Below are positions 5,944 through 24,388 of a DNA stretch of 64,000 nt, piece by piece (the first letter of the stretch is position 1; each line of letters begins with the position of its first letter). The translations under genes were made by a program, and so were the position numbers. The DNA comes from Aurantimonas marina (GTDB lineage: Bacteria; Pseudomonadota; Alphaproteobacteria; Rhizobiales; Rhizobiaceae): NCBI RefSeq assembly GCF_017183135.1, contig NZ_JADDXW010000008.1, forward strand, positions 62,001 through 126,000, written 5' to 3'. The notes under the pieces are model-generated. The model was given only the letters and a program-made list of their open reading frames with translations. It had not been told where the DNA came from and ran no database searches.

Positions 5944-6006
5944 GACGCTCTGAATACAGCAATTTTGAGCGTCATTGCGAAATAAAATAGGAATTATTTC
6001 CCCTAT
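5944..6006. promoter_or_regulatory. AT-rich divergent control region with two inverted repeats
   Basis: The 5852-6061 gap is markedly more AT-rich than its surroundings and separates divergent genes. Two inverted repeats are visible. GACGCTC (5944-5950) and GAGCGTC (5967-5973) are perfect 7-bp arms about two helical turns apart. ATAGG (5987-5991) and CCTAT (6002-6006) enclose GGAATTATTTCC. They lie 55-118 bp upstream of the DnaA-domain-IV gene. These look like operators, possibly autoregulatory, but no binding protein can be assigned from sequence. Confidence 0.4.
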
Positions 6007-6061: not shown

Positions 6062-6523
6062 ATGCAATCCATATCCCCAGACCGGGTTTCCGCCCGACCG
6101 GGCCACTGGGCACCCGTCGCGTGCGGCGAGGCCGACCCGGTGGAAGCCGAGGCAGGCCCCATCATCGAGACCGATCGCCAGGCAGTTGCGCGGACCTGCC
6201 GGCTGGCAAGGGAAATCGCCGGTGCCTTCTTCGCCATCCCCGTCCGGGAAATCGAGCAGCCCGGCCGGGCGATCGCCAGCGTCTGCGAGGCCCGGCACGT
6301 CGCCATGTATCTGGTCCATGTTGTCTTCCAGATTCCACTCTCCGCGATGGCCGAGGGGTTCGGGCGTGACCGCACGACAATCGCCTATGCCGTTCGCCGC
6401 ATCGAGGATCGACGCGACGATCAGGCGTTCGATGCCGCCGTCGAACGCTTGGAGGGCCTCGCGCACGCGGTCCGTGCGGCGCTCAACGCATGCGAGCACG
6501 GATGTGTGCGGGGAGTCACCTGA
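6062..6523 (+). CDS. Stand-alone DnaA domain IV (DNA-binding) protein
   Basis: A 153-residue protein with an AGGAGGAGG ribosome binding site. Residues about 70-118 match the C-terminal DNA-binding domain of the replication initiator DnaA. RHVAMYLVHVV corresponds to the basic-loop helix, and FGRDRTTIAYAVRRIED to the DnaA signature (canonical FGGRDHTTVLHACRKIE). The His of the canonical DHTT motif, a base-contacting residue in E. coli DnaA, is Arg104 here. There is no AAA+ ATPase domain. It probably binds DNA as a regulator rather than acting as an initiator. Its stop overlaps the start of the DUF6456 gene (TGATG), so the two are translationally coupled. Confidence 0.8.
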   Translation: MQSISPDRVSARPGHWAPVACGEADPVEAEAGPIIETDRQAVARTCRLAREIAGAFFAIPVREIEQPGRAIASVCEARHVAMYLVHVVFQIPLSAMAEGFGRDRTTIAYAVRRIEDRRDDQAFDAAVERLEGLAHAVRAALNACEHGCVRGVT

Positions 6524-7023
6524 TGGCGGCGTTTGCAAGCCACAATCCGAACGAGTCCCCTTTGGCCCGGCTGGCCCAGCGACGCGGCAAGGGCGGCGAA
6601 CCGTTCCTGGCCGAAGCGGAGACGCTGGCCGGGGAACGGCTGCGGGTCGATTTCACGCGCGGTCAGTTACTGCCCGGAATCACGCAACGTTGGGATGCCC
6701 AGCCCCGGGAAAAGGGGAGCCGGCGCGGCGCGGACGATTTGTCGGATTCGGCGATCGACGCGCGGCAACGGGTCGATGCGGCGATCAAGGCCGTCGGGCC
6801 GGAACTCGCGGGCGTTCTCCTCGACATTTGCTGCTTCCTGAAGGGACTGGAAACCGTCGAGCGGGAACGGCAATGGCCAGCGCGCTCCGCCAAACTTCTG
6901 CTGAAAGCAGGCCTTGGCGTCCTGGCTCGCCATTACGGGCTGGCCGGGGCCGCCCGGTCCGCTTCTTCGCGCATCCGGCGATGGGGAACGGAGGATTACC
7001 GCCCATCGATCAATGGCCGGTGA
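6523..7023 (+). CDS. DUF6456 domain-containing protein
   Basis: A 166-residue protein starting at the ATG that overlaps the previous stop (TGATG), with GGGAG 7-8 bases upstream. The core (SPLARLAQRRGKGGEPFLAE, then GERLRVDFTRGQLLPGITQRW and GPELAGVLLDICCFLKGLE, ending ARSAKLLLKAGLGVLARHYG) matches the family called DUF6456, as I remember it from rhizobial genomes. The function is unknown. The C-terminal half resembles phage-like regulators in tone, with a WPxRSAK helix. Coupling to a DNA-binding partner suggests a joint regulatory role; that is inference. A faint tail of basic residues closes the protein. Confidence 0.7.
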   Translation: MAAFASHNPNESPLARLAQRRGKGGEPFLAEAETLAGERLRVDFTRGQLLPGITQRWDAQPREKGSRRGADDLSDSAIDARQRVDAAIKAVGPELAGVLLDICCFLKGLETVERERQWPARSAKLLLKAGLGVLARHYGLAGAARSASSRIRRWGTEDYRPSINGR

Positions 7024-10310: not shown

Positions 10311-11061
10311 CTTCGGCGGGTGTGTTCTAGCGCTGGGAAAAAAAGGCGTGATGGCGACCGCAGCCAGTATGTGGCGGCGTCCGGCGCTTTCTGTCGGGCT
10401 AACCGCCTTCGGCGTGTTGTTCGCCGGAATGGCCAGCAATGCGATCTATGGCCAGGCCGGCCCGCATCCCAGCCCGATCCTGGCGACGCGGGGCGATGGC
10501 GAGAGTGCAGAGCGTCCGCATTTGGCGAACACGCATGGGCTAATGCCGGTCCCGCTCGTTCGGGAAGTTCAGGCCGGACTCGCGGCAATCGGCCACTACC
10601 GCGCGCCTGTCGATGGAAAGCCGGGCCCCGCGACGGAAGCCGCGATCCGCGACTTTCAGAGGGCGCATGGGCTGACGAAAGACGGCGCGGCAACGCCGCT
10701 GCTGCTCGCGCAGATCAGACAGGCTTCGGCGGATGCACCCAACCCGTCGCGGCGACCGGACGAATTTGCCAGCCTCGATGAGCGGATGGGTGGCAGCTCC
10801 GGTATGACCGATAGTTTGGCGGAAATCCCCGAGGGGTTGGCTGAATCCGGACTTGCCGCGCTCAGCGAGGACGAACTCGTCCGCCGCATCCAGGCCGGTC
10901 TAACGGCGGCGCAGGTTGCCGAACTCTCGTCCGACGGGATCCCCGGGGAGCGGACACGGGCAGCCATCCGCACTTTCGAGGCTCTGGAGGGGCTGGAGGT
11001 CACCGGTTCGCCGGACCCTCGGATTCTCGAGCGTCTGATCGAGATTGGCGCAGTCGATTGA
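10252..11061 (+). CDS. Peptidoglycan-binding domain protein
   Basis: About 269 residues, with a GTG at 10249 directly before the ATG at 10252 as an alternative start. An arginine-rich cytoplasmic N-terminus is followed by one membrane segment (ALSVGLTAFGVLFAGMASNA). The remainder is periplasmic, with a PG_binding_1 repeat (REVQAGLAAIGHYRAPVDGK, then ATEAAIRDFQRAHGL) and a second weaker copy near the C-terminus (VRRIQAGLTAAQVAEL, then ERTRAAIRTFEALEGL). It overlaps the end of the kinase gene, so it is probably co-transcribed. It may link envelope state to that kinase; this is inference from position. Confidence 0.8.
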   Translation: MPVQKRQPNRKPPRRGARPSFGGCVLALGKKGVMATAASMWRRPALSVGLTAFGVLFAGMASNAIYGQAGPHPSPILATRGDGESAERPHLANTHGLMPVPLVREVQAGLAAIGHYRAPVDGKPGPATEAAIRDFQRAHGLTKDGAATPLLLAQIRQASADAPNPSRRPDEFASLDERMGGSSGMTDSLAEIPEGLAESGLAALSEDELVRRIQAGLTAAQVAELSSDGIPGERTRAAIRTFEALEGLEVTGSPDPRILERLIEIGAVD

Positions 11062-11077
11062 GGCCCGCGCCGTAACG

Positions 11078-11410
11078 ATGCGCATAACCAGCGAACTCTT
11101 TGTGGCGCAGCTCGTCCGGCGCCTATTCGCCGCTGGCGGATTTGCCGTCGTGGTCCGCAAGGGGGCCGGTGCGGCCGGCGCGATCTTCGTGGTGACGCGG
11201 AACCGCGCCGGGGAGATCCAGCTCTTCAGTCCGGCTGTGCAAAGCCTCAGCGACGACAGCGGCACCCGGCAGTTCATGCCGGAACCGGTGGATGACGAGG
11301 CGGCACTTGAAGCCCGATTCGCGCGTGAGGCCAGGTTCGACCCGGATTTCTGGGTGGTTGAAATCGAAACGGATGACGCGCCGAGCTTTCTCCAGATCGT
11401 CGAGGGTTGA
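11078..11410 (+). CDS. DUF1491 family protein
   Basis: A 110-residue cytoplasmic protein. The ATG at 11078 gives the usual family start MRITSELFVAQLVRRLFAAG. Later come VVRKGAGAAGAIFVVTRNRAG and a C-terminal DPDFWVVEIE, both typical of DUF1491. The function is unknown. It is the last gene of the kinase / peptidoglycan-binding run and ends 93 bp from the convergent DUF2336 gene. Confidence 0.85.
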   Translation: MRITSELFVAQLVRRLFAAGGFAVVVRKGAGAAGAIFVVTRNRAGEIQLFSPAVQSLSDDSGTRQFMPEPVDDEAALEARFAREARFDPDFWVVEIETDDAPSFLQIVEG

Positions 11411-11503
11411 TCCTTATCGGTGGACCCGCCTGTCGCTGCGGGCAGGTCGCCGGCGCGAAAACAGTGCCCGGAGATCGTCAGCCGATCTTGCAGCCGTCAG
11501 GCG

Positions 11504-12565
11504 TCAGCGTTTGGCGCCGATTTGCGCGGTTCGCGACGGCAGCACGCGACGGCGGCCGAAGACCGGGCGAGGGGCCGAGGCTTCGATTCGTGGTTCAAGG
11601 TCCGCATACTGGCGTTGGTGGAGGACCGGATTGCGTGCGGGGGGCGCTGAGGAAAGCCCGAAGCGACCGCGACACTCATCGACGTCGAGGTCGCGATAGG
11701 CGAACTTCATCGCGTTGAAGGCCGCAATGTCCCGGCCGACCCGCGGTTTCAGCAGCATGATGATCGTCAAGGCGTCGGCGGGACCCGTGTTGATTGCCTT
11801 CAAGGCCGCCGCGAGGATCTCGCCGGTCGGATCGTCGAACATCTCCCGCATGCGAGAATCCGGGACCTTCAGCATGAGCGCGAGGCCGTCATATGCCAAA
11901 TTCGTGCATCCCGCCCGGGCCATTTCGACGATACCGACGACTGTGGTCGGGGCGCTGGCCGCCGGCTTGGCGAGATGCTTTCCGGGTTCCGCCAGGCGAA
12001 GCAGCACGGCGCGCGCCTCGCTGACGTTCGCCGGCTCGGCCGTGTGTGGCCTCGGTGCGTTGTTTTTGATGGCTACGACGGCCTTCGCTGCCGCCTTCTT
12101 CGTCGCGCCAGAGGGGGACATCGTGGGGGCAGGCACAGCGGCCGGGGCGGCTGCTTCGGCGGACGGCCGGTCCGTCGCTTCTCCGGATTTTCGCCGACGG
12201 CCCAGGATTCGTTGCAGCTTCGGGCTCGACCTTCTCGCGAGCACCTCGATATCGTCCGCGGTCAGGCAGGGGCTCGCCACCAAGAAGGGCGCCGCGGTGT
12301 CGATCGGGGCGGCGAGGAGCTTTTCGACAATGGTTCGCGGTACACGCGGTGACTGGGAGAGTGCCGCCGCGAGAGCGCGTTTCGTCTTGGTGTCGATCTT
12401 GTCCCAGGCCGGGGCAACCAGCCGACCAAATTCGTGCGCCTGCCGCTCGCTCGGGTTGCGATGGGCCGCGAAGCTGGCGACGGCGGCAGTCACGATCGTG
12501 TCGAAACCGCCTTGGCCGGCCTCCTTTTCGAGCGATCGAAATATGCTCGGCACGACCTCCTTCAT
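11504..12565 (-). CDS. DUF2336 domain-containing protein
   Basis: A 353-residue soluble protein. It is built of HEAT-like helical pairs (FGRLVAPAWDKIDTKTKRAL, then RVPRTIVEKLLAAPIDTAAP), a low-complexity Ala/Pro linker around residues 130-165, and a C-terminal helical half (GLALMLKVPDSRMREMFDD). These fit DUF2336, an alphaproteobacterial family of unknown function. A CtrA-box-like sequence lies 59-73 bp upstream of its start. It is monocistronic and flanked by convergent genes on its 3' side. Confidence 0.75.
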   Translation of the reverse strand: MKEVVPSIFRSLEKEAGQGGFDTIVTAAVASFAAHRNPSERQAHEFGRLVAPAWDKIDTKTKRALAAALSQSPRVPRTIVEKLLAAPIDTAAPFLVASPCLTADDIEVLARRSSPKLQRILGRRRKSGEATDRPSAEAAAPAAVPAPTMSPSGATKKAAAKAVVAIKNNAPRPHTAEPANVSEARAVLLRLAEPGKHLAKPAASAPTTVVGIVEMARAGCTNLAYDGLALMLKVPDSRMREMFDDPTGEILAAALKAINTGPADALTIIMLLKPRVGRDIAAFNAMKFAYRDLDVDECRGRFGLSSAPPARNPVLHQRQYADLEPRIEASAPRPVFGRRRVLPSRTAQIGAKR

Positions 12566-12947
12566 GGGACTCCCGGATGGTTGATCAATGGTTTCCTCGC
12601 CGCGAAGAATTACGCAAGATTTCTTAGCAAGCTGTTAACCCTCCTGGGGTCTGCTCATGCAAGGAGACCGGCGAGCAACGCGTCGGTGCCGGTGAAATCG
12701 GCCGGTCAGAAGGGAATCGGACCGTGACAGTCATTCTAAAATTTGTGCCGCGTAGCCCGATCCCGGCTCGCTGGCGGAACGAGATCCGCCCACGGGAATC
12801 GAAGGGCAAGATCGTCCTTTTGCCCTGTATTCGTCGTGAATTGCTCGAACCGGCGAAACAATGCCTCGACCGGCAAGCCATGCTACCCCGATAAGAGAGC
12901 ATCCATCGTGATGATCGCTTCATGAGCGGCCGGACAGGGTAGTCCGG
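12566..12947. other. 382-bp intergenic region between DUF2336 and DUF1254 genes
   Basis: Both flanking genes are on the minus strand, so this holds the promoter of the DUF2336 gene and the 3' region of the DUF1254 gene. A perfect 6-bp hairpin (CCGGAC at 12930-12935, GTCCGG at 12942-12947) begins right at the DUF1254 stop codon, without a T-run. A CtrA-like box is noted separately. Short open frames here have no ribosome binding site or recognisable sequence. Confidence 0.5.
12624..12638 (-). promoter_or_regulatory. CtrA-box-like sequence upstream of DUF2336
   Basis: TTAG-N7-TTAACC at 12624-12640 matches the CtrA full-site consensus TTAA-N7-TTAA(C) with one mismatch. On the coding (minus) strand it reads TTAACAGCTTGCTAA, 59-73 bp before the DUF2336 start codon, a plausible promoter position. 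It is rare sequence for this GC-rich window, but it was found by eye. Confidence 0.4.
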
Positions 12948-13571
12948 TTAGCTGTCGCGATTGTCCGGGCGGCTCGCCACCGCCGGTTCGATCGGTTCGC
13001 ACTGCAGTGAGTTGACGAAGGCTCTTGCAGAGGGGCGCTTGCTTTCCTCATCGACCAGGACACGAATGGTCATGTATCCTTCGCTCAGGTCGAGCTCTAC
13101 CGGGATCGTGATCTCCTCGGTGTCCGGGCCGAGATCGGCGTTAAACTCGACGATCTGTTCCCTGCTCCCGACGAGGAGATTGAACATGCCGTCAACGGCC
13201 GACCGATCGTTGATGCTGTAGAGATTGTCGCCGCGCCTGTCGTAGATCGAGGCTGACCAGAAGGGGCTCTCGTCATAGTTGGCAAGGATGCGAACCGGCC
13301 CTTTCGCGACCGAGAAGCGGCAGCTTGCGGTCACGAAAGCGGGGTCGACGAAGGCGAAATCCTGCCGGTCGGATCCCAGCGCGGGCGCGATCGCGTCCGA
13401 TCCGGCGCTGCGTAGGGGCTCCACGCTGACGATCTGGTACATCGGGCCAAGGTTGGAGAAGCGTGCCCATGCATTGTTTCCGGCCACGAGCGGCATGGCG
13501 AAGATCACGGCGATGTGGACGATGACGGCGCCCACCAGACCAATCATAACGGCCAGAAGCAGCTTACCCAT
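12948..13571 (-). CDS. DUF1254 domain-containing membrane-anchored protein
   Basis: The ATG at 13571 (MGKLLLAVMIGLVGAVIVHI) gives 207 residues with one N-terminal membrane anchor and a periplasmic domain (VSVEPLRSAGSDAIAPALG, then SIYDRRGDNLYSINDRSA). This is the short Hyphomicrobiales version of DUF1254, which normally partners DUF1214. The gene overlaps the upstream DUF1214 gene by 8 bp, so the two are co-translated and probably form a complex. The function is unknown. An upstream in-frame start at 13691 would place the anchor 40 residues inside and is unlikely. Confidence 0.78.
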   Translation of the reverse strand: MGKLLLAVMIGLVGAVIVHIAVIFAMPLVAGNNAWARFSNLGPMYQIVSVEPLRSAGSDAIAPALGSDRQDFAFVDPAFVTASCRFSVAKGPVRILANYDESPFWSASIYDRRGDNLYSINDRSAVDGMFNLLVGSREQIVEFNADLGPDTEEITIPVELDLSEGYMTIRVLVDEESKRPSARAFVNSLQCEPIEPAVASRPDNRDS

Positions 13572-14148
13572 CGAAGCAGGTCTCCAACTCGATATCGGGT
13601 AACGACAGGCTGTCGACGCCGCTGGACGCGCTGGCGGGTGTATCATACAGCGCCAGCGCAAGGACGAGCGGTCCCCGGCCGGAGGTTGCAAGCCAGTTGC
13701 CAGCCCTCGCCATAGGGCCGATCGCGACCGCGAAGGAATTGTCCTCGGCCCGCATCAGATTGTGGGATGTCAGCCAACCGGCCCTTCCGGCACCGGGCTG
13801 GATCAGGCGACCCTCCGGCGTATACGGAGCGAGCGTCCAGATGCGGGTCGGTGGAGTATGTCCGGCGATTCGATATTGGCACTGGCGGCGCAGCGGCGCA
13901 TCCGAACTATCGCGGTCAGCCGTGAACAAAATCCCTTCGCCGATCCCCAGCGTCAGATTGCCCAAGCGCGCCAGCCGCGCCTTGGCGTAGGGATCGGCGT
14001 CGGGAGAGCCCGCGAACGGATTGGCGGCCCAGGGGCCCACGGCGACGGTCCCGATCTCCGCAGATTCCTCAAGCGCCCGGTTTGCTGACCATCCACCGAG
14101 GCCAAGCGCGATCGCGAGGGCAATCAGGACGAGGAGAGTGAAACGCAT
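13564..14148 (-). CDS. DUF1214 domain-containing protein
   Basis: A 194-residue exported or anchored protein with an N-terminal hydrophobic segment (LLVLIALAIALGLGG). Its domain includes YRIAGHTPPTRIWTLAPYTP and LMRAEDNSFAVAIGP, typical of DUF1214. It is translationally coupled to the DUF1254 gene. The two families also occur fused in larger proteins, so this pair is a split form. The molecular role is not known. Confidence 0.78.
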   Translation of the reverse strand: MRFTLLVLIALAIALGLGGWSANRALEESAEIGTVAVGPWAANPFAGSPDADPYAKARLARLGNLTLGIGEGILFTADRDSSDAPLRRQCQYRIAGHTPPTRIWTLAPYTPEGRLIQPGAGRAGWLTSHNLMRAEDNSFAVAIGPMARAGNWLATSGRGPLVLALALYDTPASASSGVDSLSLPDIELETCFDG

Positions 14149-14189
14149 AAGCCGATTATCCGGTCCGACAGGTCTAGGCTACGGGAGGC

Positions 14190-16349
14190 TTATTGCTGCG
14201 CCGGCGCCGCATCGGCCGCCGATCGCGCCGATGCGAGTTGCTCGGGCTTAAGCTGCGACAAGGTTTCGAGCCGCTCGGCGATATCGGCCAGGACGTCCTC
14301 CGCGGCTTTCCTCAGTGTCTGTGGGCCCCGGGCTGGCGGCGCGTCGCCGTCGATCGCGGCAACCTCGCGTTTTTCTTCGGGGAAGGGATTGTCGATGTAG
14401 GGGATCGGCTTCAACTCGATGTTTTGATGGGCGGCTTCCATAAAGCGCTGCCAGGTCATTGCCGGCAGCGAGCCCCCCGTCAAATTGTTGGTCGTCTTGA
14501 AACTGTCATTGCCGAACCAGACGGCAGCCGTGAAATTGCCGGTGTAGCCGACAAACCAGGCGTCCCGGTAACTCTGCGTCGTGCCGGTCTTGCCGCCCAC
14601 GCGAGTCATCGAAAGCTGCGCTCGCCTGGCCGTGCCGCGCTCGGTGACCCCCACCAGCATCTCATTCATCGACCTGGTTGCTTCCTCGCTGAGGATACGG
14701 CGGCGCGGCGGCAAATCTTTCCGGGCGTCCCAGAGCGTCTTCCCGGAGGCAGCCGAAAGCTGCGTAATCGCATGACGACGAGAGTCCATGCCGCCATTGA
14801 CGAAGACGCCGTAGGCGGTGGCCTGATCGAGGACGGTGACTTCGCTCGTTCCGAGCGCCATCGTCTTATCGCCGCGCAAGGGGGATTCGACCCCCATGGC
14901 CTTCGCCGTCGCGGTGACGGCATCCATGCCGACTTTCTGGCTGAGCTTGACGGCTGGCACGTTCAGTGAGCGGGCGAGAGCATTAGCCAGCGTCACACGG
15001 CCGGAAAACGATCGGCCGTAATTCTGCGGCGACCAATTGCCGATGGTGACGGGGCTGTCGACGATGGTGTCTTCCGGCTTCATCCCGGCCTGCATCGCTG
15101 CGGCATAGATGAAGACCTTGAAGGAGGAACCCGGCTGCCGCAGGGCTCTCGTCGCGCGGTTGAACTGCGAGATGCCGTAGTCCCTTCCGCCGACCACGGC
15201 GCGCACGCCGCCATCGTCGCCGAGCACGACCATCGCAGCTTCCTCCACGGCGTATTTCGTGCCGAACTGCCGCAGATGGTATTCGACCGCCTCGTCCGCG
15301 AGTTGCTGAAGCCGGAGGTCGATCGTGGTGCGGGCAACGAAATTGCGCTGCTTCAGGCCGCTGTCGCGGGCGAGCCGCTGGACCTCCTCGAAGGCGTAAT
15401 CGAGGAAATAGTCGGGCGACTGCGTCACGGAACGGTCGACGGCGACGGCGGGCTGCCGGCGCGCTGCCACGACCTGACCCTCGGTGACGAAATTGGCCTG
15501 GACCATGTTGGTCAGAACCTCGTTCGCGCGGGCGCGAGCGGCCGGCAGGTTGATGTGCGGAGCGTATTTGGCGGGCGCCTTGAAGAGGCCCGCAAGCATC
15601 GCCGCCTCGGCCATCGACACGTCACGTATGTTCTTGTCGAAATAGAACTCCGCCGCAGCCGCGGCTCCGAAGCTGCCGCCGCCCATATAGGCGCGGTCGA
15701 GATACATCGCTAGGATCTCGCGCTTGCTCAGATTGGCTTCCAGCCACAGGGAAATGAACGCTTCCTTGATCTTGCGGTCGAGGGTCCGCTCATTCGACAA
15801 AAACAGGTTCTTGGCGAGCTGCTGGGTGAGCGTGGAGCCGCCCTGCACAACTCCTCCAGCGCGGGCGTTTTCCGATAGGGCCCGACCGAGCCCGAAAAGA
15901 TCGATGCCCCAGTGCTCGAAAAATCGCCGATCTTCCGTCGCCAGAACTGCCTTGACGAACGTGTCGGGCAACTCGTCGATCGGCACCGCCGCCGACCGGA
16001 GCACGCCGCGTCGCCCAATTTCGTCCCCGTGGCGGTCGAGGAACAGGACCGAGAAGTCCGTCTCCTGCGGCAGTCCTTTGGCCGTGACCTCCATCGCCGG
16101 TTGTGCGAGCGCCAGAAGGAGGACGAAGCCCGCCAGGCCCAATGTCATGCCTTCTCCGGCGACCTCGAAGACGAATCGGTTGAAGCCGCGTGCGCGAAAC
16201 TTGCGCGAGACGATCGTGATCGTTTCCCACCATGCGGCAAAGGCGCGGAAAAACCGCCACAGGCTGGAATCGATCCAGGCATCGATCTCGATCAATCGCG
16301 ACGGCTGCCGGCGCCGGGGAGTTCTGTTCGACGAGTTCTGCAACTTCAA
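14190..16349 (-). CDS. Bifunctional penicillin-binding protein 1A family (GT51 transglycosylase / transpeptidase)
   Basis: A 719-residue class A penicillin-binding protein. A basic cytoplasmic N-terminus and one membrane anchor (about 66-84) precede the GT51 domain, with catalytic Glu139 in [14 protein letters not shown] and the motif [14 protein letters not shown]. The transpeptidase domain has the active-site serine in QPGSSFK (Ser408), the SLN motif in [11 protein letters not shown], and KTGTT. It polymerises and cross-links peptidoglycan on the periplasmic side. The apparent start is a TTG at 16347-16349, because no ATG precedes the anchor, so the exact start is uncertain. A C-terminal Ala/Glu-rich tail follows the domain. 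Confidence 0.9.
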
Positions 16350-16504
16350 CCTGTCACTATCGGCTGGACCCGGCGGCCAATCGCCGCGACGACAAAGCCT
16401 GTCGCCGACGATCCCCGGTTCCCCACGTCCCTTTAGAAAACCCTGTTGTTCCCATATACGTAGACCACATGAAAAAGTCGCGAGAAAGGTCAGACATTTC
16501 GCCC

Positions 16505-16981
16505 ATGCGTGATTTCAGCAACAAGCCTTTTTGGCGTGAGAAGCCGCTTGCCGCGATGAATTCGCAGGAGTGGGAATCACTGTGCGACGGCTGCGGACGC
16601 TGCTGCCTGAACAAGCTGGAAGACTGGGATAGCGGCGAGATCGCGTGGACGAATGTGGGATGTCAGCTGCTCGACGGGCACGCATGCCGGTGCCGCGACT
16701 ACGAGAACCGGCAAGCCACCGTGCCCGATTGCGTCGCGCTCGACGCGGCAAAAGTACGCGAACTGACCTGGCTGCCTCCGACCTGCGCCTATCGCCTGGT
16801 GGGTGAGGGGCGCGATCTGTACTGGTGGCATCATCTGGTCTCCGGCGATCGAGAGACCGTACACGACGCCGGTATATCGGTGCGCGACCGCACCGTGAGC
16901 GAAGTCGGAATGGAATTAGAGGACTACGAAGAGTACGTGGCGGAGTGGCCTGGGGAAAACCCGATGGACGATGCGGCTTGA
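16505..16981 (+). CDS. YcgN/UPF0260 family cysteine-cluster protein
   Basis: A 158-residue cytoplasmic protein matching UPF0260 (E. coli YcgN). Evidence includes the start [20 protein letters not shown], the cysteine cluster [26 protein letters not shown] and [20 protein letters not shown]. The cysteines probably bind a metal or Fe-S cluster. I used the ATG at 16505; an in-frame ATG at 16469 would add 12 residues. It is divergent from the penicillin-binding protein gene. A strong terminator about 85 bp past its stop could end this transcript. Confidence 0.9.
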
Positions 16982-16993
16982 TCGGGTTCGAGC

Positions 16994-17041
16994 GAAAATA
17001 TGAAAATATTCCTTGACACCGTCACGCTGCTTTGTTAGCTT
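16994..17041 (+). promoter_or_regulatory. Candidate GTA promoter with tandem AT-rich repeat
   Basis: GAAAATAT occurs twice in perfect tandem at 16994-17001 and 17002-17009. TTGACA at 17013-17018 follows. Seventeen bases later comes TAGCTT at 17036-17041, which is a weak -10 element. The only plausible transcripts from here run into the GTA cluster. The tandem repeat could be an UP-like element or an activator site. The match is by eye, and the -10 element is poor, which fits an activator-dependent promoter. Confidence 0.45.
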
Positions 17042-17065
17042 TTAGATACAGTCGAGAAATTGCGG

Positions 17066-17097
17066 GCGGCGGGGTCTTCACCCCAGCCGCTTTTTCT
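17066..17097 (+). terminator. Strong intrinsic terminator in the GTA leader
   Basis: The stem is GCGGC plus GGGGT (17066-17075) pairing with ACCCC (17080-17084) and GCCGC (17086-17090). The loop is CTTC, with one bulged A. TTTTTCT follows at 17091-17097. It lies between the candidate promoter and the first GTA gene (start 17154), so it could attenuate the late operon. Alternatively it simply ends the YcgN transcript, or a roughly 50-nt leader RNA. Confidence 0.75.
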
Positions 17098-17153
17098 ATG
17101 CGGAATCCTCTTCAGGGAGAGGAATTTCGTGCTCTACCGACAGGGGATGAGAC

Positions 17154-17639
17154 ATGGTGAAGCTGCCATCGGATCGGCTCCTGGCTCTGCTCATGCTCGA
17201 GATCGACGTCTTCGAAATCGCGATAAAGGAAAATAAACCGGCAAAGGAGACGCCCGCACAGGCCGCGGTCGGACGCCCGAAACGCGCCGCCGGCGCGGGA
17301 ACGGACAGGACGCGGGAATTCGCGGCGGCCAAGGAACGCATCGACCTCCTCGTCCAAATGACCCGCACGTTGGAAAAGCTTCTGGAATTGCGACGGCTCG
17401 AAGTGCTCGCCGCCCAGGGCGGTGCGGAGGACGAGGCCGAGACGGCCCAACTCCGCGAGGAATTGTTGAACCGGTTGCGCAGCCTCGATGCGCGGCGGCG
17501 GGCGGGGCCGGCCTTGTTCGACACCGCTACGGGCGCGTTCGCCGGCGACGCGGCGGTCTTGCGGAGGGATGTGGCGGCCCCGACGTCGGAGACGCGGGAT
17601 GCCGGCGAACAGGCCGGCGCAGTGGCAGAGACCGGATGA
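17154..17639 (+). CDS. Candidate GTA small terminase subunit (g1 position)
   Basis: A 161-residue soluble protein with GGGGATGAG just before the ATG. It has no family I recognise. Residues about 50-105 are a long amphipathic helix or coiled coil (TREFAAAKERIDLLVQMTRT, then LEKLLELRRLEVLAAQ). A basic linker and an acidic, Gly/Ala-rich tail flank it. It overlaps the large terminase start by 4 bp (ATGA). In the Rhodobacter GTA the gene at this place, g1, is reported as the small terminase. Position, size and helical content support the same role; sequence alone does not prove it. Confidence 0.6.
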   Translation: MVKLPSDRLLALLMLEIDVFEIAIKENKPAKETPAQAAVGRPKRAAGAGTDRTREFAAAKERIDLLVQMTRTLEKLLELRRLEVLAAQGGAEDEAETAQLREELLNRLRSLDARRRAGPALFDTATGAFAGDAAVLRRDVAAPTSETRDAGEQAGAVAETG

Positions 17640-18997
17640 CGGCCGCTGTGGAGCGCGAAGGCGAGACGGGGGCAGAGGGCGCGGAAGAGGACGAGCAACA
17701 CCTATTGGACCCCGAGTTCTGGCATCGGACAGGCGTTGCTCTTCGGCAAACCCGTGCATCGGTCCTCAGGGCGACGATGCCGGTGTGGCCGTCCTATGCG
17801 CGGCCTGCCCAATTGCCACCGCCCGGCGCGTGGCGGCAATGGCTGCTGATCGGCGGCCGCGGATCGGGCAAGACCAGGGCTGGCGCGGAGTGGGTGCGGG
17901 CGATGGCGGCGGGCGACGCGCCATTCGCCAGCCGGCCACACGGCCGGATCGCGTTGATCGCCGAAACGCTTGGCGATGCGCGTGAGGTGATGGTCGACGG
18001 GGAAAGTGGCCTCATGGCTGTCTCGACTGGGCCGAGACCGGTTTTCGAGGTGAGCCGGCGCCGGCTGGTCTTCGCGAATGGCGCGATCGCGCAGATCTTT
18101 TCGTCCGAGGACCCGGACGCGCTTCGCGGCTACCAATTCGACGCGGCCTGGGGCGACGAGTTTGCCAAATGGGCCCATGGGGAGGCCTGTTTCGACAATT
18201 TGCAGTTCGGGTTACGCCTTGGCGAGCAGCCACGGGCACTGTTCACGACGACGCCGCGGCCGATCCCGCTCTTGAAGCGGCTGATCGCCGATCCGGCGAC
18301 GGTGACGAGCCACATGCGAACGGCGGAGAATGTCCGCAATCTCGCGCCTGGCTTCCTGGCCGCGATGGAGACCCGCTATGGCGGCTCCCGGCTCGGGCGG
18401 CAGGAACTGGAAGGCCTGATGATCGACGCGCGGGAGGACGCGCTGTTCGATCTGGAAGCGATCGAGCGCGCGCGGGTCAGGGCGGCGCCGGAATTGCGGC
18501 GTATCGTGGTGGCGATCGACCCGCCGGCGACGGCGACGGCGCGCTCCGATGCCTGTGGCATCGTCGCGGTCGGGAGTTCCGCCGACGGCACCGTCTACGT
18601 CCTCGCGGATGCCTCGCGGCGAGGTTCCAAGCCGCATGAGTGGGCGAGAGCGGCGGTGGCGCTTTACGAGCGGCTGGCGGCCGACCGGATCATCGCCGAG
18701 GTCAATCAGGGCGGCGACATGGTCGAGGCGGTGATCCGGACCTGCGCACCGCATGTGCCGTTCCGGGCCGTGCGGGCAAGCCGCGGCAAATGGGTGCGGG
18801 CGGAGCCGGTGGCGGCGCTTTACGAACAGGGCCGCGTGCGCCATGCGGGACGGTTTCCCGAGCTCGAGGATGAAATGGCCGATTTCGGCCCCGATGGCCT
18901 GACCGGCGGCCGCTCGCCCGACCGGCTCGACGCGCTGGTCTGGGCGGTAACGGCCCTGATGGGAACGACGCGGGAACCGCGGGTTCGTGGCTTCTAA
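17636..18997 (+). CDS. terL: GTA/phage large terminase subunit (g2)
   Basis: A 453-residue DNA-packaging motor. The ATPase domain has a Walker A motif GGRGSGKT at 73-80 and a Walker B motif DAAWGDEFAKW at about 169-179. An RNase H-like nuclease domain follows, with an acidic residue in VVAIDPPATATARSDACGIV (Asp295) and a late SPDRLDALVWA motif. It matches GTA g2, which fills capsids with random host DNA by a headful mechanism. The start overlaps the previous stop (ATGA). All key motifs look intact, so packaging competence is plausible. Confidence 0.93.
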   Translation: MTAAVEREGETGAEGAEEDEQHLLDPEFWHRTGVALRQTRASVLRATMPVWPSYARPAQLPPPGAWRQWLLIGGRGSGKTRAGAEWVRAMAAGDAPFASRPHGRIALIAETLGDAREVMVDGESGLMAVSTGPRPVFEVSRRRLVFANGAIAQIFSSEDPDALRGYQFDAAWGDEFAKWAHGEACFDNLQFGLRLGEQPRALFTTTPRPIPLLKRLIADPATVTSHMRTAENVRNLAPGFLAAMETRYGGSRLGRQELEGLMIDAREDALFDLEAIERARVRAAPELRRIVVAIDPPATATARSDACGIVAVGSSADGTVYVLADASRRGSKPHEWARAAVALYERLAADRIIAEVNQGGDMVEAVIRTCAPHVPFRAVRASRGKWVRAEPVAALYEQGRVRHAGRFPELEDEMADFGPDGLTGGRSPDRLDALVWAVTALMGTTREPRVRGF

Positions 18998-19038
18998 AGC
19001 ATCGAACGGCCGCCGAAGACGACAATCTGGAGACATCG

Positions 19039-20256
19039 ATGGGACTGATGACGACGATCGCCGGCTGGCTCGGCGGTGCTGAGACGCGCGCGCCCGTGGG
19101 TGGGAATGCCACGGGACGAGAAAGCAAGGGCGCCGGCTATGCCGGCGGCGCGCTGGTGTTCACGGGCGCCGCCGACCCCGGCGCCTGGAGCGAACCGTCC
19201 TATGAGGCGCTGGCGCGGTTCGGTTTCATGCAAAACCCGATCGTCTACCGTTCGGTGCGACTGATCGCGGAGACCGCGGCGGCCATTCCCTTCGTTCTTC
19301 ATGACGGTCCCAATGAGGTCGTCCGGCATCCGATCCTCGATCTGATGCGCAGGCCGAACAGCGGGACGGATGGGCCGAGCCTCGTCGAGACGTTGTGCGG
19401 CCATCTGCTTCTGTCAGGCAACGCCTATCTCGAGGCGGCCAACTTCGAGAGCGAGGTCAAAGCGCTGTACTCGCTGCGCCCGGATCGGATGCGGATCATC
19501 GAAGGACGCGACGGATGGCCGGTCGGCTACGAGTACAGGGCCGGCCATTCGGTCCGCCGCATCGCCGCAGACGGCAGCGACGGCCGGCCAAGCACGCTCC
19601 TGCATGTGCGCCTGTTCCATCCTTTGGCGGAGATGGCCGGCTATTCGCCGCTCGCGGCAGCGCAGACGGCGCTCGACCTGCACAATGCGGCATCGCGCTG
19701 GAACAAGGCGCTGCTGGACAATTCCGCGCGCCCATCCGGGGCGCTGGTCTACCAGCCGGCCGACGGCGGCAATCTCGCGCCGGAGCAATTCGACCGCCTC
19801 AAGGCTGAGCTCGAAAGCGGCTATGCCGGATCAGCGCGCGCCGGGCGTCCGATGCTGCTCGAAGGAGGGCTGGACTGGAAGGCGATGGCGCTATCGCCGA
19901 AGGACATGGACTTCATCGAGGCCCGCAACGGCGCGGCGCGCGACATCGCGCTTGCCTTCGGCGTGCCGCCGATGCTGCTCGGCATACCGGGCGATCTGAC
20001 CTACGCGAACTATGCCGAAGCGAACCGTGCCTTTTTCCGGCTGACCGTGCTGCCCCTGATCAGCCGGTTGAGCGGAGCGATCGGCGATTGGCTCGGCGGC
20101 CATTTCGCGGCGCCCGAACTTCGGCTCGGCGTGGATCTCGACCAGGTGGACGGCCTGAGCGCCGAGCGTGAGGCGCTCTGGGCGCGGGTCGGCGCGGCGG
20201 ACTTCCTGTCGCGTTCGGAAAAGCGCGTGGCGGTCGGCTACGGCGTCGAGGAGTAA
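19039..20256 (+). CDS. HK97-family portal protein (GTA g3)
   Basis: A 405-residue portal protein. GGAGACATCG precedes the ATG. Typical elements are FMQNPIVYRSVRLIAETAAA near residue 75, DPxxM-like RPDRMRIIEGRDG, HVRLFHPLAEMAGYSPLAAA, and AFGVPPMLLGIPGD near the C-terminal third. It would form the dodecameric DNA entry ring at one capsid vertex. It lies 41 bp downstream of terL in the canonical GTA order. Confidence 0.92.
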   Translation: MGLMTTIAGWLGGAETRAPVGGNATGRESKGAGYAGGALVFTGAADPGAWSEPSYEALARFGFMQNPIVYRSVRLIAETAAAIPFVLHDGPNEVVRHPILDLMRRPNSGTDGPSLVETLCGHLLLSGNAYLEAANFESEVKALYSLRPDRMRIIEGRDGWPVGYEYRAGHSVRRIAADGSDGRPSTLLHVRLFHPLAEMAGYSPLAAAQTALDLHNAASRWNKALLDNSARPSGALVYQPADGGNLAPEQFDRLKAELESGYAGSARAGRPMLLEGGLDWKAMALSPKDMDFIEARNGAARDIALAFGVPPMLLGIPGDLTYANYAEANRAFFRLTVLPLISRLSGAIGDWLGGHFAAPELRLGVDLDQVDGLSAEREALWARVGAADFLSRSEKRVAVGYGVEE

Positions 20257-20278
20257 ACCGGGGATCAACGCCAGAAAA

Positions 20279-20303
20279 GAGCGGCAACCAATCGGTTCCG
20301 CTC
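20279..20303 (+). other. Hairpin between portal and DUF6107 genes
   Basis: GAGCGG (20279-20284) pairs with CCGCTC (20298-20303), and inside it AACC (20286-20289) pairs with GGTT (20294-20297), with one bulged C and the loop AATC. There is no T-run, so it is more likely an RNA stability or translational element than a terminator. It sits in the 156-bp gap after the portal gene. Confidence 0.35.
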
Positions 20304-20412
20304 CAAGACCTTGTTTCACCACGATATTTCAGGGTGACCGAACGATGCAGCCATCTTATGCGATTGTCAGGACGAAGCCTTGTGGCGGCCCTCGCGGCGC
20401 AAGGCGGCTGCG

Positions 20413-20754
20413 ATGAGCGCCGAGCCGCTGTCGGCCCTGGCGCTTTGGGTCGCAAAGATCGCCGGCGCCGTCGCCGGGTCAGCCATCTCGGTGGCCTATT
20501 TGTTGCCGCGGGGGCGGCGCGAGGCGGCGTCGCGGTTTCTCATAGGGATTGTGACCGGTGTGGTCTTCGGCCCGCCGGCCGGCCTGGTGCTCGCCGAGCA
20601 TCTGGGGCTCAACGCGACCTTGAGCTCGATGGAGCTCGCGCTGATGGGGTCGGCCTCAGCCAGCCTTTGCGCCTGGTGGGCGCTCGGCATTCTCGCGCGC
20701 CTCGCGGAGGGGCTGTTCAGCGTCGGTGACAAGGCGCCTTGGAGGAACCGATGA
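20413..20754 (+). CDS. DUF6107 small membrane protein (GTA cluster, between portal and protease)
   Basis: A 113-residue protein with three hydrophobic stretches: LALWVAKIAGAVAGSAISVA, FLIGIVTGVVFGPPAGLVLA, and MGSASASLCAWWALGILARL. A conserved polar loop PRGRREAASR lies between the first two. I recognise it as DUF6107, found in Hyphomicrobiales GTA clusters at the position of Rhodobacter g3.5. The function is unknown; a holin-like role is possible but unsupported. Its stop overlaps the protease start (ATGA), so it belongs to the same transcript. Confidence 0.72.
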   Translation: MSAEPLSALALWVAKIAGAVAGSAISVAYLLPRGRREAASRFLIGIVTGVVFGPPAGLVLAEHLGLNATLSSMELALMGSASASLCAWWALGILARLAEGLFSVGDKAPWRNR

Positions 20755-21281
20755 GCTCCGGACCTTCGGCGTTCGACTTCGCCAGGCCCGACGCCTCCGG
20801 CCGGTTGCGGGGCTACGCCGCGATCTTCGGCGACGCGGACCTTGCGGGCGACGTCATCGAGCCCGGCGCCTTCACCGCATCCGTCGTAACGCGCGGCGCG
20901 TCCGGCATTCGCATGCTCTGGCAGCACGATCCCGGCCGCCCCGTCGGAACCTGGACGCTGATCCGCGAAGACCGGACGGGGCTCTATGTCGAAGGCCGGC
21001 TCGCGCTTCGCACGCAAGCCGGCCACGAGGCGGCCGAGCTGATCGCGGCCGGGGCGCTGGATGGGCTGTCGATCGGCTTCAAGACCAAGCTGGCGCGGCG
21101 GGCGGTCGGACCGATCCGAAGACGCCTCGTCACGATCGATCTGTGGGAGATCTCGCTGGTGACCTTTCCGATGCAGGAACGGGCGCGGCTCATCGGCCGG
21201 GCCGGTCTCGCCCGCCGCCGGGACGAGCGGCTGCCGGCATCAGGCTATCCCCGCCAGAAACGGCGGGCCGTCCCGGCCTGA
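20751..21281 (+). CDS. HK97-family prohead protease (GTA g4)
   Basis: A 176-residue maturation protease with GGAGGAACCG before the ATG. The catalytic elements are visible: His59 in MLWQHDPGRP, Ser107 in LDGLSIGFK, and the acidic Glu133 in IDLWEISLVTFPM. It would cleave the N-terminal scaffold (delta) part of the capsid protein during head maturation. It is coupled to DUF6107 by a 4-bp overlap and precedes the capsid gene, the canonical order. Confidence 0.93.
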   Translation: MSSGPSAFDFARPDASGRLRGYAAIFGDADLAGDVIEPGAFTASVVTRGASGIRMLWQHDPGRPVGTWTLIREDRTGLYVEGRLALRTQAGHEAAELIAAGALDGLSIGFKTKLARRAVGPIRRRLVTIDLWEISLVTFPMQERARLIGRAGLARRRDERLPASGYPRQKRRAVPA

Positions 21282-21340
21282 GCGCCGACCGCGACGCAAT
21301 AGTCCGCTGACCATCCATCCCAAGCAGAACGGAGAACCGC

Positions 21341-22591
21341 ATGAGCGACATTTCCAACGCCGCGCCGGAGACGAAGGCGCACGGCCCCGAGGCCGGTTCG
21401 GCTTTCCATGACTTCATGGAGGCTTTCGAGAGCTTCCGGGAAGCCAATGACGAGCGTCTCGGCGATATCGAGAAGCGCATGAGCGCCGACGTCATCACCG
21501 AGGAAAAGGTCGATCGCATCAACAAAGCGCTCGAAGAGCAGGAGCGGCGCTTCGAGCGGCTGGTGCTGAAGGAGACCCGCCCCGCGCTCGGCGGTTCGGA
21601 GCGTCGGCAGAACGCCGGTCCGAGCGAGCACAAGCAGGCTTTCGAGCGCTATGTCCGCGCCGGCGACGAGCGTGACATGCGCCGGATCGAGGAAAAGGCG
21701 ATGTCGAGCCTGACCGGGGCGGACGGCGGCTTTTTGGTTCCCGACGAGACGGAGACCGAGATCGGCCGGCGCCTCGCAGCGATTTCGCCGGTCCGTTCCA
21801 TCGCCACGGTTCGCACCGTCTCCGCCGCGGTCCTGAAGAAGCCCTTCGCGATCTCCGGGGCGCAGACCGGCTGGGTGGGCGAAGCCGACGCCCGGCCGCA
21901 GACGACGGCGCCGCAGCTCGCCGAACTCACCTTTCCGACGATGGAACTCTACGCCATGCCGGCGGCGACGAACGCGCTGCTCGACGATGCGGCGGTCAAT
22001 ATCGACCGGTGGATCGGCGAGGAGGTCGAACAGGCTTTCGCGGCCCAGGAAGGCACCGCCTTCGTCAATGGCGACGGCATCGCCAAACCGAAGGGCTTCA
22101 TGACCTATCCGACGGTCGATGAAAGCGCCTGGGCGTGGGGCTCGATCGGCACCGTCGCCACCGGTGCGGCGGGCGGTTTCGCCGCGGGTACCGCCGCCGA
22201 CGCGGTGCTCGATCTCGTTTATGCGCTGAAGGCCGGCTATCGGCAGAACGCCAGCTTCGTCATGAACCGGCGCACGCAGGCGGCCGTGCGCAAGCTGAAG
22301 GACGCGGACGGCAACTATCTGTGGCAGCCGCCGACCGGAGCCGGCGCGCGGGCGACGCTGATGGGCTTCCCGATGGTCGAGGCCGAGGACATGCCGGATA
22401 TCGCCGCCGGAGCGAAGGCGATCGCCTTCGGCGATTTCGGCCGGTTCTATCTCGTCGTCGACCGGCAGGGGGTGAGGGTGCTGCGCGATCCCTACTCGGC
22501 CAAGCCCTACGTCCTCTTCTATACGACCAAGCGCGTCGGCGGCGGCGTGCAGGACTTCGACGCAGCCAAGTTCCTCGACTTCTCTCTCTAA
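21341..22591 (+). CDS. HK97-fold major capsid protein (GTA g5)
   Basis: A 416-residue capsid protein with GGAGAACCGC before the ATG. Residues about 20-85 form a charged coiled-coil delta domain (FESFREANDERLGDIEKRM), which the protease should remove. The HK97 fold begins around SLTGADGGFLVPDETETEIG. It continues through FPTMELYAMPAATNALLDDA, AFVNGDGIAKPKGFMTY and ADGNYLWQPPTGAGARATL, ending with the family's final strands (KPYVLFYTTKRVGGGVQD). It is the most highly required structural protein of the cluster and is followed by a strong hairpin. Confidence 0.95.
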   Translation: MSDISNAAPETKAHGPEAGSAFHDFMEAFESFREANDERLGDIEKRMSADVITEEKVDRINKALEEQERRFERLVLKETRPALGGSERRQNAGPSEHKQAFERYVRAGDERDMRRIEEKAMSSLTGADGGFLVPDETETEIGRRLAAISPVRSIATVRTVSAAVLKKPFAISGAQTGWVGEADARPQTTAPQLAELTFPTMELYAMPAATNALLDDAAVNIDRWIGEEVEQAFAAQEGTAFVNGDGIAKPKGFMTYPTVDESAWAWGSIGTVATGAAGGFAAGTAADAVLDLVYALKAGYRQNASFVMNRRTQAAVRKLKDADGNYLWQPPTGAGARATLMGFPMVEAEDMPDIAAGAKAIAFGDFGRFYLVVDRQGVRVLRDPYSAKPYVLFYTTKRVGGGVQDFDAAKFLDFSL

Positions 22592-22606
22592 GTATCCCCC
22601 GACAGC

Positions 22607-22637
22607 ACCGGCCGGGCAGGGTTCTTGCCCGGCCGGT
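22607..22637 (+). terminator. Perfect 12-bp hairpin after the capsid gene
   Basis: ACCGGCCGGGCA (22607-22618) is perfectly complementary to TGCCCGGCCGGT (22626-22637), with the 7-base loop GGGTTCT. It begins 16 bp after the capsid stop and is followed by TCTCTTT. It could be a partial terminator, or a 3' stabiliser that raises capsid mRNA over the downstream tail genes. Confidence 0.65.
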
Positions 22638-22653
22638 TCTCTTTCCGGAGACA

Positions 22654-23214
22654 ATGATGACGACGATCGACCTTGGCGGTGGCGTCGAGCCGATGACGGC
22701 CGCCGATATCAAGATCTGGGCCAGGATCGACCGCGACGACGAGGACGGTCTGATCGCAAATCTGATCCGCGCCGCCCGCGAAACCATCGAGGCGACGACC
22801 GGTCTCGTTCTGGCGCGGCGGACGTTTCGGCTGGCGCTCGACCCGGTTCCCGGCGACGGATGGGCCGAAGTCCGGCTGAGCCCGATCGTCGGCGTGACGT
22901 CGATCACCGCCTATGGAGCGGACGGCACGCCGATCATTTTCGATCCGGGCGAGGCGATCGTCGAGCGCGTTCTCGGGATCGAGGCGATCCGGCTGTCGCC
23001 AGCGGTGCGGATGGCGGCGGCGAACGGCGTGGAAGTCGAGTTCGAGGCGGGCTTCGCGGTCGGTATGGTTCCCGAGAACCTGCTTCTGGCGCTGCGCACC
23101 ATCGTGGCGGCGTCGTATGAACTGCGGGCCGCCGTCGATCTCTCCCAACAGCCGGCAGTCCTTCCCACGCTGGCCCGGTCGCTGCTTGCTCCGTATCGCA
23201 GGGTCCGGATCTGA
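22654..23214 (+). CDS. GTA head-tail connector / adaptor protein (g6)
   Basis: A 186-residue protein of the phage gp6-like head-tail connector type. CCGGAG precedes tandem ATGs at 22654 and 22657. Characteristic parts are MTAADIKIWARIDRDDEDGL and LIRAARETIEATTGLVLARR at the N-terminus, the helical region typical of this ring-forming adaptor. It attaches under the portal. Its stop overlaps the next start (TGATG). Confidence 0.88.
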   Translation: MMTTIDLGGGVEPMTAADIKIWARIDRDDEDGLIANLIRAARETIEATTGLVLARRTFRLALDPVPGDGWAEVRLSPIVGVTSITAYGADGTPIIFDPGEAIVERVLGIEAIRLSPAVRMAAANGVEVEFEAGFAVGMVPENLLLALRTIVAASYELRAAVDLSQQPAVLPTLARSLLAPYRRVRI

Positions 23215-23546
23215 TGGCGCCGCTGTTTCTCGACCCGGCGCTGCTGCGCAAGCGCGCGGTGCTGGAAGCCGCCGATCTCACGCCCGATGGCGCGGGCGGG
23301 GCGTCGGCCACATGGCGGGAGCTGCGCGAGCTTTCGGTGCATGTCGAGCCGGTCTCGGTGGTCGCTCGCGAGCGCTTCGACCGGCACGAGGCGGTAGTGA
23401 CCCATCGGGTGATCTGCCGCTGGACAACCGACGTCGAGCGCGGCCGCGCATTCCGCCTGGGCCCGCGCCGCCTTGCCATTCTTTCGGTGCATGATCCGGA
23501 CGAGACCGGGCGCTTTCTCGTGTGCCGCTGCGAGGAGCAACGCTGA
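23214..23546 (+). CDS. Phage head closure / head-tail adaptor protein (GTA g7)
   Basis: A 110-residue SPP1 gp16-like head-closure protein. Typical features are the opening AVLEAADLTPDGAGGASATW, the mid-protein VEPVSVVARERFDRHEAVVT, and the C-terminal HDPDETGRFLVCRCEEQ. It would close the head completion gate beneath the connector ring. It is coupled to g6 by a one-base overlap. Confidence 0.87.
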   Translation: MAPLFLDPALLRKRAVLEAADLTPDGAGGASATWRELRELSVHVEPVSVVARERFDRHEAVVTHRVICRWTTDVERGRAFRLGPRRLAILSVHDPDETGRFLVCRCEEQR

Positions 23547-23770
23547 TGCGCATCGACGTGCGGCTCAAGCGCCTACGCCTCGGCGCGGCCACCCATCGCG
23601 TGATCAGCGCGGCCCTGGACGAGGGGAGGCGGGCCCAGGGCGCGTCGTTGGTGCAGCCACTACCCTCGACATCGCGAATCCTTAACATTCCCGAGGCATG
23701 GTCGATGCTACACGCCGAAGTGTCCAGCCGGACGCGAAAGACGGGAACACCGACGGAGACACTCCGTTAA
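23546..23770 (+). CDS. Possible small ORF between g7 and g8
   Basis: An ATG at 23546 overlaps the g7 stop (TGATG), preceded by GAGGAG about 9 bases upstream, and opens a 74-residue basic frame. The first 30 residues are helix-compatible (LKRLRLGAATHRVISAALDE). The remainder looks like non-coding sequence read through. I recognise no family, and I do not recall a gene at this place in the Rhodobacter cluster. It may be a degenerating or lineage-specific gene. Confidence 0.35.
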   Translation: MRIDVRLKRLRLGAATHRVISAALDEGRRAQGASLVQPLPSTSRILNIPEAWSMLHAEVSSRTRKTGTPTETLR

Positions 23771-23885
23771 CGACTCACGACGACGTTGCGAAAATTTAAA
23801 CCAAAACGCTACGAGTACCCCTGACGGGATGGTGCTACACTCCATATATCAATCTGTCAGGAAAGGTGAGCGAGGATTACTGGCC

Positions 23886-24296
23886 ATGGCACATCCCAGC
23901 GCTGAATTGCAGACGACGATCTTCCAGACGCTGACGTCGGACCCGGCCCTGACGACCTTGCTCGGCGGGCCAAAAGTGTTCGATCGTCGTCCGGAACGAG
24001 CGAGTTTTCCCTATTTGACGTTCGGCCGAACGGCGGTCGTCGATTGGTCGACCGGGACGGAGGACGGGGCGGAGCACATCCTGACCCTGCATGTCTGGGC
24101 GAAGGGCGGCGGCAAGCGCGAGACCTATGAAATCATGGACAAGGTCGCGAGCAAGCTGAACGACGCGACCTTGCCGCTGGAGGGGCACCATCTGGTCAAC
24201 CTCCAGCTCCAGTTCGCAGAGGCCCGGCAGGAGCCGGACGCGCCGACCTATCACGGCATCCTGCGGTTTCGGGCGGTGACCGAACCGCTGGCCTGA
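23886..24296 (+). CDS. DUF3168 tail terminator / tail completion protein (GTA g8)
   Basis: The ATG at 23886 gives 136 residues starting MAHPSAELQTTIFQTLTSDP. DUF3168 features are PALTTLLGGPKVFDRRP, FPYLTFGRTAVVDWSTG, EHILTLHVWAKGGGKRETYE, and the C-terminal GILRFRAVTEP. This protein caps the tail tube and joins it to the head. It follows a 339-bp gap that is unusual inside this otherwise overlapping gene array, and it is followed by an intrinsic terminator. Confidence 0.88.
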   Translation: MAHPSAELQTTIFQTLTSDPALTTLLGGPKVFDRRPERASFPYLTFGRTAVVDWSTGTEDGAEHILTLHVWAKGGGKRETYEIMDKVASKLNDATLPLEGHHLVNLQLQFAEARQEPDAPTYHGILRFRAVTEPLA

Positions 24297-24360: not shown

Positions 24361-24388
24361 GGGCGGTCCTTCGGGACCGCCCTTTTTG
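24361..24388 (+). terminator. Intrinsic terminator before the major tail protein gene
   Basis: GGGCGGTCC (24361-24369) pairs perfectly with GGACCGCCC (24374-24382) around a TTCG tetraloop, and TTTTTG follows at 24383-24388. ATTTT on the left side could also make it work in reverse. It sits 65 bp past g8 and 41 bp before g9, inside the structural operon, so read-through must be permitted for the tail genes unless a promoter lies beyond it. Confidence 0.8.

Follow-up and report, generated by a model that had tools for sequence, protein, structure and literature searches.

A leader directly ahead of a gene transfer agent (GTA) cluster in Aurantimonas marina, at 16995-17095 on the forward strand of the 64,000-nucleotide stretch analyzed (hereafter the window, to which all positions refer), probably acts as a switch resembling that of the lambda late promoter pR'. 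In this reading, to which we assign a probability of about 0.63, direct repression is combined with antitermination by GafZ in a rewired variant of the Caulobacter system. The observations consist of the leader sequence, its conservation, covariation in its hairpin, its linkage to GTA genes, and its co-occurrence with GafZ. Because GTA production kills the producing cell, how the operon is held off in nearly all cells is a central regulatory question, and a signature that spans the order yields base-level predictions for the transcription start, the repressor site, the GafZ site, and the terminator. From the layout, antitermination by GafZ may already take effect at +17 to +48, and the structural operon itself would be a target of the repressor, which it is not in Caulobacter.

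Anatomy and conservation of the leader

The cluster 3' of the leader encodes terminase, portal, capsid, and GTA_TIM proteins, identifying it as a GTA. The first-pass annotation of this stretch had pointed to a tandem repeat of GAAAATAT, followed by TTGACA, a poor -10 and an intrinsic terminator with a T5 tract before the first GTA gene. All of these are present (Table 1): the 16-mer of the doubled repeat has a single exact match in the 4.03-Mb genome, the -10 matches TATAAT at three of six bases after a spacer of 17 nt, and the hairpin stem begins 17 nt past the predicted start. As a meaningful unit, however, the repeat did not survive alignment of the leaders, in which its first copy is replaced, mostly by TAGG, and the palindrome that overlaps it is conserved instead. 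We rejected the tandem arrangement as a functional unit for lack of conservation; it appears to be incidental, overlapping the apparent repressor operator.

The promoter core was described with a sequence-only model from 19 leaders aligned gap-free over 72 columns, and column statistics were taken over 83 sites that include the 19 training rows, dispersed copies (discussed below), and sites picked by a matrix built from those rows. Conservation of the initial bases is quoted from these 83 sites because sites found by pattern in named genomes and viral contigs had the bases at +1, +5, and +6 required. Across the 83 sites, AGGA-N6-TCCT ends on the -35 and is centered at about -41.5. Its strict form, GGA-N6-TCC, stands at this position in 99/148 distinct promoter-core sites, dispersed copies included; the copy in the window, ATGAAAATATTCCT, departs from it once. 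Between the -35 and -10 lies a second palindrome with the consensus CA(C/G)CGT-n-ACG(C/G)TG. Within the transcribed part, conservation is highest at the first few bases, with C(+6) in 77/83 sites in addition to those in Table 1. These bases are kept also in leaders without a terminator, an observation partly biased by the search patterns, as would be expected if they serve loading and not termination.

The segment 17063-17097 folds with a free energy (ΔG) of -20.4 kcal/mol (z -4.3; equaled by 0 of 200 shuffles) into a hairpin with one bulged A and a tetraloop. Presumably because of the bulged A, it was not among the matches of a generic scan of 14000-33000, which matched no promoter either. 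In other genomes, a terminator was called where a hairpin of ΔG at or below -13 kcal/mol and a T-run began 75-210 nt from the start of the element; the cut-off was set after the scores were known, and the contrast is unchanged with values between -10 and -15. Up to 99 loci entered this survey, 73 of them counted as GTA-associated, and 45 of the 73 carry a terminator, compared with 6 upstream and 12 downstream control windows. Among distinct leaders the count is 73/135, compared with 18-23 in five dinucleotide shuffles, and stems starting within 80 nt are found in 39 of the 135, compared with 4-9 in the shuffles.

Fourteen of the 35 proximal hairpins, those of similar geometry, were aligned for covariation. 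In this alignment 95.7% of cells are paired, 16 cells are changed on both sides (shuffled mean 4.9, with none of 500 shuffles reaching as many), and sliding the pairing partner lowers pairing to 38-66%, so that the hairpin looks selected as a structure. By these sequence criteria the leader terminator is common and not universal.

Table 1. Coordinates of the leader elements and associated features in the window.
Feature	Position	Strand	Remarks
Tandem GAAAATAT (two copies)	16994..17009	+	Repeat status not conserved
Palindrome AGGA-N6-TCCT, here ATGAAAATATTCCT	17000..17013	+	Candidate RogA-type operator; overlaps -35
-35, TTGACA	17013..17018	+	TTGAC in 82 or 83 of 83 sites per base
Spacer palindrome CACCGT-n-ACGGTG / CAGCGT-n-ACGCTG	17017..17029	+	One mismatch here; candidate GafZ-binding element
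-10, TAGCTT	17036..17041	+	Family consensus TAGGgT; T in 82, A in 83, and final T in 77 of 83 sites
Predicted transcription start (+1)	17048	+	Inferred; A in 83/83 sites
A(+1)NNNT(+5), -10-like	17048..17052	+	Candidate sigma-dependent pause; A 83/83, T 77/83; lambda parallel
Intrinsic terminator hairpin	17065..17091	+	ΔG, z, covariation
T5 tract	17091..17095	+	Predicted RNA end ~17095-17097, ~48-50 nt
gafY homologue (DnaA domain IV-like helix-turn-helix)	6062..6523	+	PF08299, E 8.7e-11
gafZ homologue (DUF6456)	6523..7023	+	PF20057, E 2.2e-47; candidate processive antiterminator
GGAATTATTTCC, exact GGAA-N4-TTCC	5990..6001	+	RogA-type operator candidate upstream of gafY
ycgN-like gene (CxxCxxCC)	16505..16981	+	Upstream neighbor, outside the switch
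First GTA gene (small-terminase position)	17154..17639	+	Similar open reading frames adjoin the leader in relatives; no Pfam match
Large terminase	17636..18997	+	PF03237/PF17289; start of GTA structural cluster
Hairpin with T-rich tail	22607..22637	+	Internal terminator candidate after capsid gene; very stable, z -5.9
Hairpin with T5	24361..24382	+	Internal terminator candidate near start of tail tube reading frame; very stable, z -5.3

Distribution and linkage to GTA genes

The promoter-core model matches 212/297 genomes of the order at E ≤ 0.1. At E ≤ 1e-6 there are 113 matching genomes; a GafZ-family protein is encoded in 112 of them (Fisher p 4e-14), and GTA_TIM in 101. Genomes with both GafZ and GTA_TIM (n = 197) include 101 strong matches and 181 at the relaxed threshold; those with neither (n = 57) include one and eight, respectively. 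The presence lists behind these comparisons were compiled by hand, and the GafZ-family search also matches the Caulobacter vibrioides control.

In a class-wide draw the core was found in 5/192 genomes (E ≤ 0.001), three of them from the order and the other two from a single family beyond it. Both outside sites (L335 and L336; genomes G343 and G457) precede terL and have a similar spacer palindrome and, judged by eye only, a hairpin and T-run downstream; AGGA-N6-TCCT is not evident in them. A pattern scan of named genomes returned 35 loci, all from Hyphomicrobiales as far as titles tell, and in 32 a GTA gene lies downstream within the fetched stretch. Of the other three, two end within 1 kb and one (L185) lacks a GTA gene in ~6 kb.

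The same promoter occurs on IMG/VR viral contigs (L202-L242), and terL, portal, or capsid genes lie downstream in 41/41 of these loci. Because GTA genes are the neighbors, the contigs probably represent GTA clusters of host genomes that were catalogued as viral, and we rejected a phage origin of the promoter signature on the same grounds.

When 16505-17639 was used as the query against 60 relatives, nine genomes gave the leader as a conserved block of its own, ~65-100 bases long. The block in G005 is ~250 bases before the match to the first GTA gene and 1.9 kb beyond ycgN; in G034 ycgN is on a different contig from the leader and the first GTA gene. In G020, G022, G023, and G031 the core is followed by terL 0.6-1.8 kb downstream.

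A proposed double lock and its alternatives

The gafY and gafZ homologues lie 10 kb upstream of the leader, in the two-gene arrangement into which gafA is described as split in Hyphomicrobiales (PMC6363796, PMC9638019). Upstream of gafY, 61 bases before its start, is the only exact GGAA-N4-TTCC of the window. GGA-N6-TCC precedes gafY in 14/28 windows from relatives, where shuffles average 1.9 with a maximum of 7, and precedes a rogA-like gene in 14/30 (shuffle mean 1.4, max 7). The latter gene encodes a 214-amino-acid protein with a helix-turn-helix (HTH) and an S24 domain; it has E < 1e-30 matches in 30/36 relatives, and the genome's only other S24 match is LexA-like. Nearly all rows of its alignment keep an AG, a Ser, and a Lys (for example, L302 1483-2127, minus strand), which we take to be the motifs typical of self-cleaving S24 repressors; the protein might be inducible by self-cleavage.

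Based on these elements, we propose that the leader would be the main promoter of the GTA cluster and would be doubly locked. A RogA-type LexA/cI-like repressor would bind AGGA-N6-TCCT over the -35, and would act also on gafYZ and on its own gene. Any polymerase that starts at 17048 would then meet the intrinsic terminator 17-48 nt on and release an RNA of ~48-50 nt. Relief of repression would allow GafY and GafZ to be made; GafZ would bind the palindrome between the -35 and -10 and load onto polymerase, perhaps while the latter pauses at the -10-like A(+1)NNNT(+5). The modified polymerase could pass the leader hairpin and also the two hairpins inside the cluster, at 22607 and 24361; these would be further obstacles for a processive antiterminator to overcome. 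Which protein binds which palindrome, as well as pausing, termination, and antitermination, we infer from the sequence. The first-pass annotation had proposed a layout that keeps the operon off until an activator or antiterminator acts. This idea gains from the GTA linkage, the covarying hairpin, and the GafZ homologue in the window, but it loses the repeat and the constancy of the terminator (73/135).

The closest counterpart is PgtaT of Caulobacter crescentus. There, according to the relevant passages of Tran and Le (2024; PMC11150451), GafZ is an antiterminator that enables polymerase to read through terminators and requires a palindrome between the -35 and -10, and GafY acts at both the gafYZ and GTA promoters. 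The two systems share GafY and GafZ homologues, RcGTA-type genes, terminators in the way of the cluster, and a palindrome between the -35 and -10, in the position of the Caulobacter GafZ-binding element. They differ in the -35 (a degenerate AATCAT in PgtaT and TTGACA here), in the three 150-bp repeats after gtaT, in place of which there is a leader terminator at about +17 to +48, and in the RogA-type operator candidate on the GTA promoter itself.

RogA is reported in parts of Gozzi et al. (2022; PMC9632790) as a LexA-like repressor of gafYZ whose bound region has GGAA-N4-TTCC repeats. The motif at gafYZ is shared, in one copy here and two in Caulobacter, and the RogA-like candidate, with its 214 amino acids, is close in length to RogA (213). 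Here the candidate operator is present on the GTA promoter too, as well as ahead of the rogA-like gene. Key residues are reported to be missing from Caulobacter RogA; the candidate here keeps the AG, Ser, and Lys.

In the lambda late promoters, positions +1 to +6 hold a -10-like element whose mutated bases are A+2 and T+6, and the terminator tR' lies downstream (PMC4604602, in part). The leader resembles pR' in its promoter, its -10-like element at the start of the transcript, and its promoter-proximal intrinsic terminator. A candidate repressor operator overlapping the -35 is a feature of the leader here, and the candidate antiterminator is GafZ (DUF6456). The pause is hypothetical because A(+1)NNNT(+5) is one base off the lambda element. 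In pR' the antiterminator site lies upstream of the start, as does the candidate GafZ site here.

For RcGTA, the C-terminal (GafZ-like) part of GafA is reported to bind the -10/-35 region (Fogg 2019, PMC6363796; Sherlock and Fogg 2022, PMC9638019, both in part). No leader terminator is described for that system, the word "terminator" occurring in neither main text. Among titles and the starts of abstracts, no report of a leader terminator or of a RogA-type operator at a GTA main promoter was found, nor, among listings and passages, a GTA promoter mapping for Hyphomicrobiales. Antitermination in the Bartonella GTA is the subject of an eLife paper that we know by citation only.

Several observations weigh against the proposed switch. 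By the ΔG and T-run test, 62/135 distinct leaders have no terminator, and none was found at the nine f33/g66 loci. Base pairs with a double change number three, no more than in shuffles (mean 2.5), among sequences that are related to one another. A perfect spacer palindrome is seen in 39/119 GTA sites, with 5/6 pairs in 36 more, and the sequence of this palindrome differs from that of Caulobacter. A motif search of 16860-17060, which could miss divergent sites, found neither the IHF site nor ACTATG, the Caulobacter GafY element, and Caulobacter-like IHF and distal GafY sites were set aside. The operator on the GTA promoter departs by one base from the GGAA-N4-TTCC form, and one-mismatch sites of this type are not above chance in the window (22 found, 25 expected). 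In the cited passages, the enrichment of Caulobacter RogA is confined to gafYZ and CCNA_02002 and does not extend to the GTA promoter (PMC9632790), and further XRE repressors act at gafYZ (PMC10688885), so a different repressor could own the operator. Over 14000-33000, terminator-like sites taken together show no enrichment (15 found, 12.1 expected), and for this reason the candidates at 22607 and 24361 rest on their stability.

Rather than a repressor operator, AGGA-N6-TCCT might be an activator site for GafY, which would leave the terminator and GafZ parts unchanged. The center of the palindrome near -41.5 is a class II position, the palindrome is common to the gafY and GTA promoters, at both of which GafY works in Caulobacter, and the site in the window, 61 bases before gafY, still allows an activator position. 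We nonetheless consider this reading rather unlikely: GGA-N6-TCC stands also upstream of the rogA-like gene, the palindrome resembles the published RogA repeat, the ACTATG of Caulobacter GafY lies far upstream, and in some relatives (L294 and L298) the palindrome is only ~20-40 bases before a likely gafY start codon.

Two other alternatives concern the hairpin. One is that the leader makes a functional small RNA of ~50 nt, with transcription of the GTA operon depending on a start elsewhere or on chance read-through; a T-run hairpin that is strong and covaries, directly after a conserved promoter, would fit this, as would the short terminated RNA that the lambda late promoter likewise yields. 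We regard it as improbable, since Rfam has no match at E ≤ 1 in 16400-17700 (which disposes of a known small RNA as the leader product), the stem persists as part of its sequence varies, the promoter is kept in leaders without a terminator, and conservation of the transcribed part is highest at its first few bases. Less probable by far is that the hairpin is simply the terminator of ycgN, just after which it lies in the window, and that the promoter match is incidental. A terminator (ΔG ≤ -13) follows ycgN in 7/10 loci with a leader core within 400 nt and in 3/20 without one, a comparison in which loci were taken by leader core and GTA-less genomes were not singled out; thus, the hairpin is not simply a feature of ycgN, as the separation of leader and ycgN in G005 and G034 also indicates. 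Three of the coreless loci do have a terminator, but the other 17 have none, the leader goes with the GTA when ycgN is elsewhere, and only 1/57 genomes lacking both GafZ and GTA_TIM has a strong core match. We therefore rejected the ycgN reading, and a leader layout that belongs to the GTA is supported, in agreement with the first-pass annotation.

Dispersed and rearranged copies

Genomes of the genus g48 contain 1 to 13 copies of the promoter core (pattern with at most three mismatches); a reversed-pattern control gave none. In two of them (G242 and G259; L087-L106), 20 copies were fetched with 3-4 kb of flanking sequence; terL is absent from this stretch in 18 of them, and many stand just after the ends of genes as called mechanically. 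Five non-GTA copies occupy matching places in these two species. The core is identical at 60-63 of 68 bases in these pairs, compared with 34-88 of the first 100 bases downstream, and is at least as conserved as that downstream segment in each; in two of the five, a stretch further downstream is at least as conserved as the core. No clear pattern among the mechanically called flanking reading frames marked the copies as promoters of recognizable accessory GTA genes, and we dropped this idea. It is a tentative possibility, which we would not expect to hold, that Hyphomicrobiales GTAs keep a full lambda-type late switch, with a repressor operator on the promoter, GafZ loaded in the manner of Q during a sigma-dependent pause, and a leader terminator, and that in this genus copies of the promoter have spread to some dozen host loci, from which GafZ-modified, termination-resistant polymerases would transcribe scattered parts of the host chromosome in GTA-producing cells.

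Two loci show rearrangements of the leader itself. In G006, ~15 kb (L039, ~1740-16870) interrupts the leader right after the -10; the insert opens with repeats of CTGTCCATTT and is possibly a mobile element that separates the GTA from its promoter. In G321, a second, decayed copy of the promoter and leader lies 2.8 kb upstream of a better one (L114, 343 and 3114).
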